Positions 18,860-40,318 of a stretch of 40,487 nt of DNA are shown piece after piece. A program made the position numbers and the translations under genes. Positions within the stretch are counted from its first letter, which is position 1; every line of letters starts with the position of its first letter. The notes under the pieces were generated by a model. It worked only from the letters and a program-made list of their open reading frames with translations, was not told where the DNA came from and made no database searches. This DNA is from Firmicutes bacterium ZOR0006 (lineage in GTDB: Bacteria > Bacillota_I > Bacilli_A > Culicoidibacterales > ZOR0006): NCBI GenBank assembly GCA_000798955.1, contig JTLC01000013.1, forward strand, positions 1-40,487, given 5' to 3'.

Positions 18860-18876
18860 AAAAAGGAGGAAGATTT

Positions 18877-19839
18877 GTGGACTATCCAAAAATAGTGGCA
18901 ATTGGTGGAGGCACGGGACTATCAACATTATTGAGTGGGCTCAAGCATTTTCCCGTAGATATTACAGCAATTGTCACAGTAGCAGATGATGGCGGAAGCT
19001 CGGGAATTTTACGCAGTGACTTGCAAGTACCACCACCAGGTGACATTCGCAATGTGCTTGTCGCTTTAAGTGACGTTGAGCCGGTTTTAGAAGAATTGAT
19101 GCAATTCCGTTTTCAAAAAAATGATCATTATCTCTCTGGCCATTCAGTAGGGAATTTGTTATTAGCAGCAATGTATGCTATTTCCGATGAAAATTTTGTT
19201 GATGCTGTTGAAAAAATGGCACGAGTTTTAAATGTTCGGGGGCAAATTTATCCTTCGGCGGCAACAGCAATGGTGCTGCAAGCTGAACTTGAAGATGGTA
19301 CGATTATTCAGGGGGAGTCACAATTAGCTAAACATCCTTCACCAATCAAGCGAGTTTTTTTTGAACACCAACATCCAGCAGTGCCAGAGTGTTTAGAAGC
19401 GATTGTCGATGCTGATGTAATTGTGCTTGGTCCAGGAAGTTTATTTACAAGTGTTATTCCTAATATTTTATTTCCGGAAATTCAAGCAGCTATTTTAGCA
19501 TCACCAGCACAAAAGTTATATGTGTGTAATATCATGACGGAACATGGAGAGACTGATTTTTATACGGTGAGCGATCATATTCAAAAATTAAATCAACATA
19601 TGGGGAGTAGTTTTTTAGACGCCGTTATTGCCAATGATGAAGAAATTCCCAAAGAATATCTGAAACGATATGCACAGGAATCTGCTCAGCCAGTTATTCT
19701 TGACAAACCGACAATTGAGGCAATGAGTGTTGAAGTTATTCCCTCGCGAATTGCTGATTGGGATGTGAAGCGTGGTGTTCGTCATGATGCAATTAAAGTT
19801 GCTGCTGTTGTGTACTCACGTGCACTAGAATATCTCTAA
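18877..19839 (+). CDS. yvcK: YvcK/GlmR, UDP-GlcNAc-binding regulator of cell-wall precursor supply
   Basis: A 320-residue CofD-like protein. The N-terminal IGGGTGLSTLLSGLK and TVADDGGSSGILR motifs are diagnostic of YvcK, and VLGPGSLFTSVIPN follows near residue 186. In Bacillus it is needed for growth and wall synthesis on gluconeogenic carbon and controls GlmS activity in response to UDP-GlcNAc. Translation starts at GTG 18877, about eight bases after AAAAGGAGG. It is co-transcribed with the Nudix gene and rapZ. Confidence 0.95.
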   Translation: MDYPKIVAIGGGTGLSTLLSGLKHFPVDITAIVTVADDGGSSGILRSDLQVPPPGDIRNVLVALSDVEPVLEELMQFRFQKNDHYLSGHSVGNLLLAAMYAISDENFVDAVEKMARVLNVRGQIYPSAATAMVLQAELEDGTIIQGESQLAKHPSPIKRVFFEHQHPAVPECLEAIVDADVIVLGPGSLFTSVIPNILFPEIQAAILASPAQKLYVCNIMTEHGETDFYTVSDHIQKLNQHMGSSFLDAVIANDEEIPKEYLKRYAQESAQPVILDKPTIEAMSVEVIPSRIADWDVKRGVRHDAIKVAAVVYSRALEYL

Positions 19840-37005: not shown

Positions 37006-37392
37006 ATGGTAAAACTATTAGGTATTTTGCTAATTATTATTTGCGTACTCATTATTCGCAAAAGATATTGTTATTGGCGGAAGGCAAAATTTATGGCGGA
37101 AATGAATACAATTCTAACAATCGATGCTTGCCGATACTTAAATAAAAATGATATGATTCATGCTTTTGAAACTACTACTGAAAAATATCAAGTAGAAAAA
37201 TATCAGATTGCATATTATCGTGAAGTTATTGAAAATTTTGCGAAAGAATATGAAAAACAAGCACGTAGCTATGATGCCGAACAAAAATATGCTGATTTAG
37301 CGAAGCTTCATGAAATTTTTCAAATAGATATTGATAACCAATATCAACAGCGGGTTTTTGCCACACTGTTTATGAAAATTCGTAATAACTAA
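37006..37392 (+). CDS. Small membrane-anchored protein, unknown function
   Basis: A 128-residue protein with one N-terminal membrane segment (about 3-17) followed by RKRYCYWRK, so the rest is likely cytoplasmic. Residues 40-128 are charged and helical, possibly coiled coil, rich in Tyr, Glu, Gln and Lys. I recognise no family. ATG 37006 follows GAGG by about nine bases. It is divergent from the inactive hydrolase gene, which also has an N-terminal anchor, and 33 bases before the LacI-type gene. Confidence 0.6.
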   Translation: MVKLLGILLIIICVLIIRKRYCYWRKAKFMAEMNTILTIDACRYLNKNDMIHAFETTTEKYQVEKYQIAYYREVIENFAKEYEKQARSYDAEQKYADLAKLHEIFQIDIDNQYQQRVFATLFMKIRNN

Positions 37393-37425
37393 TTAATTCC
37401 CAAAAAATCAGAAGGAGAAACTCGC

Positions 37426-38379
37426 ATGGCAACAATTAATGACGTCGCAAAACACGCAAAAGTATCGAAAATGACAGTTTCACGTGTAATTAACCACCCA
37501 GAACAAGTAACAGAAGATTTGCGTCAACGTGTGCATTATTCAATGAAAGAATTGAATTATAAACCAAACTATGCGGCGAGAGCAATCGCATCAAGTAAAA
37601 CTGGAATCATTCAATTTGTTGTAAAAGAAAAAATTGATACAACTGATCCATACTTTATTCAATTATTAGCTGGAATTAGTGAAGGACTCAGTGAAAAGTA
37701 TTATTCATTATTAATGCTAACACAAGATAGTAATTACCGTGGTCGTTGTGATGGGATTATTTACACGGGAATGACAGCCCAAGATTTAGAAGAACTTGAT
37801 TTAGATACACCATGCATCATTTTTGGCGAAAATGAACAGGGCTTTGACTTTGTAGATGTGAATAATGAAGCAGGTACAAAACTTTCGACACAATATTTGA
37901 TTAACCAAGGGTATGAAAATATCGCGATGTTTACAATGGACTGGGATGTACGATTTGCACAACAACGTAAAAGCGGTTATCTCCAAACAATGATTCATAA
38001 TAAATTAGAACCACAAATTTTCGGAATCGATAATGATACTGAAAAAGCAAAATTTGAAGCAATGGAATTATTAAAAGCCAATCATTTTCAAGCGATTGTT
38101 TGTGGAAGTGATGCTATTGCAGTTGGCGTAACGCGAGCAGCACGAAAGCTCGGTATAAAGATTCCAGAACAATTAGCTGTCATTGGTTTTGATGGTGTGT
38201 TCTTAGATCAAATTGCAAACCCGAAAATTACTACAATTAAACAACCAATTCATGAAATGGGTCGAACATTAGCGACAGAATTGATAGAAAAAATCGAGAA
38301 AAAGCGGACAACAGCTTTAAAACGTTATTTCGAGCCAGAACTTATACTTAGAGAAACAACTCAAAAAAAGAACCTTTAG
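37426..38379 (+). CDS. LacI-family transcriptional regulator
   Basis: A 317-residue regulator with an N-terminal LacI helix-turn-helix (TINDVAKHAKVSKMTVSRVI, residues 3-22), hinge helix (YAARAIAS) and a periplasmic-binding-protein-like effector domain ending IANPKITTIKQPI. It is closer to sugar-specific MalR/GalR-type members than to CcpA, since the CcpA core blocks are absent. ATG follows GAAGGAG. Effector and targets are unknown; a LacI/cre-like palindrome lies just downstream on the promoter of a candidate small RNA. Confidence 0.85.
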   Translation: MATINDVAKHAKVSKMTVSRVINHPEQVTEDLRQRVHYSMKELNYKPNYAARAIASSKTGIIQFVVKEKIDTTDPYFIQLLAGISEGLSEKYYSLLMLTQDSNYRGRCDGIIYTGMTAQDLEELDLDTPCIIFGENEQGFDFVDVNNEAGTKLSTQYLINQGYENIAMFTMDWDVRFAQQRKSGYLQTMIHNKLEPQIFGIDNDTEKAKFEAMELLKANHFQAIVCGSDAIAVGVTRAARKLGIKIPEQLAVIGFDGVFLDQIANPKITTIKQPIHEMGRTLATELIEKIEKKRTTALKRYFEPELILRETTQKKNL

Positions 38380-38417
38380 AAAAACTGTATTTTGTAGGAA
38401 AATAAAATAAAATTATC

Positions 38418-38455
38418 AGAAAGCGCTTGCGCCAAGTGGAGTTAAATGATATATT
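38418..38455 (+). promoter_or_regulatory. Promoter with LacI/cre-like operator for the candidate small RNA
   Basis: -35 TTGCGC (38427-38432) and extended -10 TG-A-TATATT (38447-38455) at 17 bp. AGAAAGCGCTTGCG (38418-38431) overlaps the -35. It matches the cre consensus at 11 of 14 positions and has the central CG-type symmetry of LacI-family operators. Confidence 0.6.
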
Positions 38456-38461
38456 GATAAC

Positions 38462-38564
38462 GGTATCATAAGAGCCCAAGCTTATGATATCAAGAAAATA
38501 AAAGCTCCTTTTCTTTTATTTTTCATCTTCCTCATCTTAGACCCGACAGGGTCTATTTTTTTTT
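38462..38564 (+). ncRNA. Candidate regulatory small RNA
   Basis: No open frame of note. The predicted start, seven bases after the -10, coincides with the base of hairpin 1: GGTATCATAAG/CTTATGATATC (38462-38472/38481-38491), loop AGCCCAAG. Hairpin 2 is AAAATAAAAG/CTTTTATTTT (38495-38504/38513-38522); its loop CTCCTTTT is complementary to AAAAGGAG, a Shine-Dalgarno core. A C/U-rich stretch follows, then terminator AGACCC-GACA-GGGTCT (38539-38554) with nine Ts. The whole is about 100 nt. Alternatively, hairpins 2 and 3 are merely the terminators of the LacI gene. Confidence 0.55.
38539..38564 (+). terminator. Terminator upstream of the asnS leader
   Basis: AGACCC (38539-38544), GACA loop, GGGTCT (38549-38554), then A and nine Ts. 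Confidence 0.9.
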
Positions 38565-38573
38565 GAAAAAAGA

Positions 38574-38602
38574 TTGTAATTTAGAAGCGAATAATTTAAA
38601 AT
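38574..38602 (+). promoter_or_regulatory. Promoter of the asnS T-box transcript
   Basis: -35 TTGTAA (38574-38579), 17-bp spacer, -10 TAAAAT (38597-38602). Confidence 0.6.
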
Positions 38603-38608
38603 AAAAGG

Positions 38609-38876
38609 GCAGTTCATAATTGTAAAAATAAGAATAAAAGCGTTGAAAAGAAGAGTAAGTACTTGTTAAGTTTAATGAAGCGAGCTAGGGAGGGTGAAAG
38701 CCTAGTTTAAACAGAGTATTGAAGAACAGCTTGGAGCTATCCATAGGAACAGAGTCTGTCTCTTAGTAGTATGTATCGAGTCATTCCCGTTAAAGAATGA
38801 TGAGTTGATTTTTGGTGAACAAAAATAAATAGGGTGGTACCGCGGTTTTTCGTCCCTAGCTCAAGGCTTTTTTTTT
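38609..38876 (+). promoter_or_regulatory. T-box leader, asparagine specific
   Basis: The T-box sequence AGGGTGGTACCGCGG (38831-38845) is diagnostic. Stem I carries the conserved apical loop GGGTGAAAGCC (about 38692-38702). The specifier loop contains AAC (38725-38727), the Asn codon, next to A, agreeing with asnS downstream. Uncharged tRNA-Asn would stabilise the antiterminator and allow read-through into asnS. A T tract at 38868-38876 marks the terminator. The acceptor-end binding bases are TGGT. Confidence 0.93.
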
Positions 38877-38929
38877 GGCTTTTTTTGCAAAAAAATGAAA
38901 CGGATATACCATATTAGGAGGTAAAAAGG

Positions 38930-40318
38930 ATGGAAACAGTAGCAATTCGAAAATTATATCGACAAACAGAAAGTTTTATCGGTCAGACGGTTAAAGTATC
39001 AGGTTGGATTCGCACAAATCGTGATCAAAAGGAATTCGGGTTTATCATGTTAAATGATGGAACGTTTTTCCAAGGAGTACAAGTCGTGTATACGAACGAA
39101 CTCCATAACTTTGAGAGCATTGCTAAATTTGGGGTGTCAACAGCAGTAACAGTGATTGCCGAAGTAGTCGCAACACCAAATGCCAAACAAGCGTTTGAAT
39201 TAAAAGCACAAGAAGTTAGTCTCGAAGGAGAGTGCCCGAGTGAATATCCACTGCAACCGAAGCGGCATTCAATGGAATACTTACGGACAATTGCGCATTT
39301 ACGCCCGAGAACAAATCTTTTTAGTGCGGTTTTCCGTGTACGGTCATTAACTTCATATGCAATTCACAAATTTTTCCAAGACCGCCACTTTGTGTATGCC
39401 CATACACCAATTATTACTGGAAGTGATGCTGAGGGTGCTGGGGAAATGTTTTCTGTTACAACGATTAATCCATCGATGCCACCAATGGTTGATGGACATG
39501 TTGATTATAAAGAAGACTTTTTTGGAAAACACACAAATTTGACAGTGTCAGGACAATTGGAAGCAGAAGCATTTGCTTTAGCATTTCGAGATGTGTATAC
39601 ATTTGGACCAACATTCCGTGCTGAAAACTCGAATACAACACGACATGCAGCAGAGTTTTGGATGATTGAACCGGAGATCGCATTTGCTGATTTAAATGAT
39701 GATATGGATTTAGCAGAAGCAATGGTGAAGTACGTCATTCAATATGTACTTGAACATGCACCGGAAGAAATTGAATTTTTCAATCAATTTGTTGAAAAAG
39801 GTTTGAAAACACGGCTAGAAACTTTAGTTACAGCAGATTTTCACCGCGTGTCATACACGGACGCAATTAAAATTTTAGAACAAGCAAAGAAAAAATTTGA
39901 GAATCCCGTTTCTTGGGGAATCGATTTATCAACAGAACACGAACGTTACTTAACAGATGAAGTATATAAAGCACCGGTCTTTGTTACTGATTATCCAAAA
40001 GAGATTAAATCATTTTATATGCGTTTAAATGATGATCAAAAGACGGTTGCTGCAATGGATATGTTAGTACCAGGAATTGGAGAATTAATTGGTGGAAGTC
40101 AACGTGAAGAACGTCTCGACGTGTTAGAAGCAAGAATGGACGAGATTGGTGTGCCAAAAGAGGAGTTATGGTGGTATCTAGATTTACGTCGTTTTGGTGG
40201 TGTAAAACATGCTGGGTTCGGACTTGGATTTGAACGAATGGTGATGTATTTAACTGGTGTTGAAAACATTCGCGATGTCATTCCGTTTCCACGTACGCCA
40301 AAAAATGCAGAATTTTAA
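38930..40318 (+). CDS. asnS: Asparaginyl-tRNA synthetase
   Basis: A 462-residue class IIb aminoacyl-tRNA synthetase. Residues 1-110 are the OB-fold anticodon-binding domain ([18 protein letters not shown]). Class II motif 2 is [21 protein letters not shown], around residues 226-246, and motif 3 is [13 protein letters not shown] near residue 430. The Asn rather than Asp specificity is supported by overall pattern and by the AAC specifier in its T-box. ATG follows TAGGAGG. A terminator follows. Confidence 0.97.

Follow-up and report, generated by a model that had tools for sequence, protein, structure and literature searches.

What lies in the intergenic stretch between the gene for a LacI-family regulator and the asnS T-box leader of Firmicutes bacterium ZOR0006, and does it have a role in sugar use? 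The window analyzed here is the whole stretch of 40,487 nucleotides from one contig, and an initial annotation had placed in this interval a candidate sugar-responsive small RNA (sRNA) whose loops would target ribosome-binding sites. The elements listed in that annotation (TTGCGC, a 17-bp spacer, TG-A-TATATT, a cre-like box, hairpins, a C/U linker, and a terminator) are all present in the sequence (Table 1), and together with the comparisons described below they indicate that 38461-38564 is a real, conserved RNA gene that, by its sequence, has a promoter and terminator of its own.

Table 1. Predicted features of the sRNA locus, with positions in the window
Feature	Position	Strand	Evidence or remark
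LacI-family regulator, likely alpha-glucan (maltodextrin) type; proposed controller of the sRNA	37426..38379	+	Pfam LacI and Peripla_BP_3; orthologues beside GH13 genes
cre-like box AGAAAGCGCTTGCG, proposed CcpA site	38418..38431	+	Overlaps -35; 2 mismatches to TGNAARCGYTTNCA; 13/14 in congener
Promoter: -35 TTGCGC (38427-38432), 17-bp spacer, extended -10 TG-A-TATATT (38447-38455)	38427..38455	+	Sequence
Palindrome TGATAACGGTATCA, proposed operator of adjacent LacI	38455..38468	+	From last -10 base over predicted start into 5' arm of hairpin 1
Candidate sRNA, about 100 nt (predicted ends)	38461..38564	+	Fold z; conservation in congener and another family
Hairpin 1, 11 pairs, loop AGCCCAAG	38462..38491	+	Fold; pairing kept in congener despite altered 3' arm
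Hairpin 2, 11 pairs, loop CUCCUUUU	38494..38523	+	Fold; 30/30 identical in congener
Pyrimidine linker, unpaired, with AUCUUCCUCAUC (38525-38536), likely seed	38524..38537	+	14/14 in congener; invariant in two intact copies of other family
Intrinsic terminator and T tract	38538..38564	+	Stem 38538-38555; stem kept in congener, loop different
asnS T-box leader	38634..38860	+	RF00230, 116.6 bits; downstream, separate, no part of sRNA

The folding energy of 38461-38565 is -30.5 kcal/mol, compared with -13.1 +/- 2.5 kcal/mol for shuffled sequences (z = -7.0), and z is still -5.2 when the terminator is removed. Homologues of the RNA give comparable values (-6.0 in a congener; -5.8 and -5.2 for two copies in another family). 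The -10 hexamer is TATATT at 38450-38455. Because the -35 element is weak, with only three of six matches to the consensus, the promoter was not listed by a scan for consensus promoters; what speaks for it is the extended -10, its conservation, and the promoters of the homologues. The sequence has its own predicted promoter, its own terminator, and no conserved open reading frame (ORF) here, in the congener, and in the intact copies from the other family.

The congener (G001, contig CAMFJD010000015.1) is represented by a metagenome-assembled genome (MAG), in which the gene order is the same: LacI, RNA, T-box, asnS. The sRNA is 90% identical between the two species, and hairpin 2 together with the linker is identical at 44 of 44 positions. 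The cre-like box differs at one of its 14 positions, and the segment from just before the -10 to the end of the operator is identical at 19 of 20. In the spacer that separates the cre-like box from the -10, identity drops to 47%; the flanking spacers have 37% (directly behind LacI) and 51% (beyond the terminator), and the values are 54% for third codon positions of LacI and 77% for the T-box. Conservation of the hairpins in related genomes, which the initial annotation had named as a way to check its proposal, was found in the congener for hairpin 2, for the pairing of hairpin 1, and for the terminator stem. In hairpin 1 the 5' arm is the same and the 3' arm has changed but still pairs (GGUA with UACC, with one bulged U), which is what would be expected if the 5' arm has a second duty.

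More distant homologues were found within the order. A first blastn search covered 40 relatives and gave mostly A/T-rich chance matches, except in the congener and in a genome from another family (G002), where a weak match led to clear homologues. They comprise a short hairpin on the 5' side (GGUAGCAGAUAUGUUACC), another hairpin that carries UCCUUU close to its tip, then the linker AUCUUCCUCAUC and a terminator. A covariance model (R1) matches four copies in G002, one copy here, and one in G001; five of these six copies had served to build the model, so the independent results are limited to the fourth copy in G002 and the absences elsewhere. Among 395 genomes of the class, R1 gave no match with E < 1e-4 outside the order, in a scan run with stricter filters, which lose weak matches. 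On inspection, the hits in G003, G005, G017, G018, G032, and G041 (E 0.003-0.1) appear to be chance matches. Of three relatives within the order, two carry the sRNA; the third, G003, is only 78% complete. A search of phages and viral contigs for the sRNA returned nothing, and a plasmid match (39% coverage) looks like an A/T-rich chance similarity. At gathering thresholds, an Rfam search matched the asnS T-box only; comparison of the sRNA with the Rfam covariance models at lax thresholds, up to E 5, yielded no relevant match, the hits being on the minus strand or unrelated noise. Judged by these searches, the sRNA is a previously undescribed RNA family.

The copies in G002 have a different setting. 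One follows folC, and three follow a repeated ORF of about 90 codons without a Pfam match; two of those three appear to lack the terminator and part of the linker, which leaves two intact copies. The copies have their own promoters, whose extended -10 is spaced from hairpin 1 as it is here, and the genes that precede these copies are unrelated. They lie away from the lacI gene and lack the operator, so that the presumed sugar control is found in this genus only. The repeated ORF itself is present in five copies in G002; three of them precede an RNA copy, and after one other there is different sequence without the RNA.

The link to sugar depends mainly on a second palindrome, TGATAACGGTATCA (38455-38468), which was absent from the initial annotation and which is more telling than the cre-like box. 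The congener carries TGATAGCGGTATCA as its operator, and the regulator's palindrome is conserved at the promoter as TGATANCGGTATCA in both species. Where translated, orthologues of the adjacent LacI have the helix KMTVSRVINHPE[QK]V in common, and TGTTANCGGTAACA-type sites occur shortly after the orthologue's stop codon in seven other genomes (V. humatus, three Marinilactibacillus, Amphibacillus, G002, and G003); V. lutrae has no TGTTANCGGTAACA-type site after its LacI orthologue. The gene that follows encodes a GH13 enzyme in three of these genomes (V. humatus, G002, and G003), so the sRNA here occupies the place of those relatives' alpha-glucan operon. The cre-like box was considered as the LacI protein's own site and rejected, because the orthologues carry TGTTANCGGTAACA instead. 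Against NCBIfam equivalogs, including CcpA, the LacI protein scored below the cut-offs, and a better CcpA candidate is found elsewhere in the genome (C33, 314 bits, itself below the cut-off).

Sites of this type extend well beyond the sRNA locus. The pattern TGWTANCGNTAWCA occurs 12 times in this genome and 11 times in G001, compared with three occurrences of the reversed control pattern in each. About 10 further operator sites are present here, mainly beside maltose/maltodextrin genes, and most of them recur in G001. They adjoin an alpha-amylase-type lipoprotein, a debranching enzyme, a GH65 gene, GH13 genes, and a GHL10 secreted protein; two lie at a solute-binding protein with a divergent neopullulanase-type gene, and another at a second solute-binding protein with permeases. 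A match at a PRD gene (C37) falls inside the coding frame and is probably due to chance. The genome-wide sites at alpha-glucan genes suggest that the adjacent LacI is of the maltodextrin type and, together with the sites after orthologous genes, that the sRNA most likely belongs to its alpha-glucan regulon, with CcpA as a second input. One unexpected member of the regulon may be an elongation-factor-G-like gene, which has the operator motif TGTTAGCGCTATCA just upstream both here (C66:6080) and in G001 (C1:6816).

About 5% of random windows match TGNAARCGYTTNCA as well as the cre-like box does. Such boxes are enriched near regulon promoters, however, being found near four of about nine independent ones in this genome, and at the GH65 promoter of both species a cre-like box stands 29-30 bp upstream of the operator. 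The proposal that the sRNA is sugar-responsive is well supported at the level of sequence, by a LacI-type operator at the start site that forms part of a genome-wide maltodextrin-type regulon and by a conserved cre-like box on the -35.

The other main claim of the initial annotation, that the RNA carries anti-Shine-Dalgarno loops, stands in part. Conservation in the sRNA centers on two stretches, the linker AUCUUCCUCAUC and the UCCUUU loop at the tip of the second hairpin; each is predicted to be single-stranded and is complementary to Shine-Dalgarno (SD) sequences, as a seed would be. The linker is the better candidate: copies that retain the terminator show no change in it across the two families. 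Predicted pairing with start regions versus random positions is -10.2 versus -7.3 kcal/mol for the linker and -8.6 versus -6.4 kcal/mol for loop 2, a preference that is partly built in because start regions were chosen partly by SD strength, and that reflects generic SD affinity rather than specificity. The C-rich loop 1, to which the same role had been given, shows no preference for start regions (-5.9 versus -6.3 kcal/mol) and is absent from the copies in the other family.

The search for individual targets covered 25 genes of the window and the regulon genes, and no gene among them has strong pairing conserved in both congeners. On its + strand, the window has five copies of the motif AAAAGGAG, against an expectation of 1.7. 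Two of them stand in tandem upstream of hprK (13839 and 13850); only the nearer is at ribosome-binding distance, and the congener keeps just the generic AAAAAGGAG there. The SD of yvcK, AAAAGGAGGAAGAU (18861-18877), overlaps the complements of loop 2 and of nine linker nucleotides, and this pairing is not conserved in the congener; hprK and yvcK are generic matches and find no support as specific features. The sequence TGAGGAAG before ATG is about as common as the control, and the one site that both species retain falls within a coding sequence; AAAAGGAGC before ATG occurs at 19 and 15 sites, as expected for SDs. The SD region of sodA (superoxide dismutase), AUGAGGAAGAU (C31:23042), is an 11-nt exact complement of the linker that the congener lacks, aspS has a shorter match that is conserved, and the neopullulanase match, 11 bp with a single G-U in this species, is weaker in the congener.

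Production of this sRNA probably goes along with that of the enzymes that digest starch and maltose, and the bacterium probably uses the RNA to pair with mRNAs. Stated in full, our preferred reading, to which we assign a probability of roughly 0.6, is that of an independent trans-acting sRNA gene in the alpha-glucan regulon of the adjacent LacI, repressed by CcpA in glucose, whose product pairs with SD regions. What the sequences show is the predicted fold with its conservation, the operator motif with its regulon, and the complementarity to SDs; transcription, binding by LacI and CcpA, the sign of the control, and base-pairing with targets are parts that we infer. The LacI regulator would bind TGATAACGGTATCA over the start site and block transcription until an inducer derived from alpha-glucan is present, and CcpA, acting at the cre-like box that overlaps the -35, would add repression in glucose. 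Once induced, the sRNA would offer two pyrimidine-rich stretches for pairing, the loop of hairpin 2 (UCCUUU) and especially the linker; these would bind the SD regions of some mRNAs and lower their translation. Repression by LacI is suggested by the position of the operator over the start site; the positive action of MdxR from E. faecium, a LacI regulator of related function (PMC3737153), counts against it.

Several other explanations share some of this evidence. The sRNA could be made and controlled by LacI as proposed and yet bind a protein or act as a sponge for another sRNA, instead of pairing with mRNA start regions. The hairpin-plus-linker shape would suit such a role equally well, the window and regulon genes offered no conserved mRNA target, and RsaI and RsaG of S. 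aureus do bind each other (PMC9266662); we nevertheless consider this unlikely, given that the two most conserved stretches are both single-stranded and SD-complementary. Alternatively, the RNA might be nothing more than the end of the LacI transcript, its 3' UTR with the terminator, lacking a separate promoter or function. It is on the same strand and directly downstream of lacI, and 38538-38555 is the sole terminator-like site detected within 37300-39100. The extended -10 and the two conserved palindromes upstream of the RNA, the G002 copies that follow unrelated genes under promoters of their own, and a degree of conservation in hairpin 2 and the linker that exceeds what a terminator needs make this improbable.

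The presence of an alpha-glucan operon at this place in relatives raises a related possibility, in which the palindrome serves LacI autoregulation or marks a vestigial operon and the RNA is the leftover leader of a lost alpha-glucosidase operon. A leftover would hardly explain a homologous RNA apart from lacI in another family, or the strong conservation of the RNA body, and we regard this account, too, as improbable. The idea that the transcript encodes a small protein draws on a frame in the congener that is open across the RNA from an AUG in hairpin 1; in this genome a stop follows five codons after the same AUG, no SD precedes it, and indels shift the copies of the other family into different frames, so that a coding role seems very remote.

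The nearest parallels to an mRNA-pairing sRNA under sugar control come from other Firmicutes. RsaI of Staphylococcus aureus is a trans-acting sRNA of ~110 nt that is repressed by CcpA in glucose and pairs with the SD sequences of target mRNAs (PMC9266662); the promoter logic (CcpA/glucose) and the type of SD pairing proposed here are the same, whereas the present RNA has no sequence or structure match in Rfam and adds a pathway-specific LacI operator. SR1 of Bacillus subtilis is also sugar-controlled, via CcpN and partly CcpA (PMC8464778), but it is 205 nt long, encodes a peptide, and answers to another control protein, and here there is no conserved ORF.

A broader picture, which we offer tentatively and at somewhat less than even odds, is that an RNA family not described before, from an order of Bacilli that has been little sampled, forms the post-transcriptional arm of an alpha-glucan regulon. 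Its 5' hairpin arm would double as an operator half-site of the local LacI, its 12-nt linker, invariant across families, would retune the translation of many mRNAs when starch sugars replace glucose, and in the sister family the RNA would have been copied with a repeated small-ORF cassette, without sugar control. To our knowledge, few descriptions exist of Firmicutes sRNAs that answer to a pathway-specific sugar regulator and not to CcpA alone, and we know of no RNA work in this lineage. If the picture is true, an RNA arm would be added to a maltodextrin regulon, and the locus would be a compact case of one DNA segment constrained both as operator and as RNA stem. The finding also defines a testable RNA family in this lineage.

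The regulon itself resembles the MalR/MdxR maltodextrin regulons of Firmicutes in having a LacI-family regulator and an even palindrome with a central CG, a likeness by regulator class and motif that leaves orthology aside. Co-control of maltose genes by CcpA and MalR/MdxR is known, for example for nplT (PMC4052901; PMC3616900), and the passages of these two sources consulted here mention no sRNA member, in which respect the present regulon would differ. A further cre-like sequence in the window, TTGATAGCGTTTTCT at 2335-2349, has one mismatch to a cre consensus and lies just before a PTS gene at 2394.
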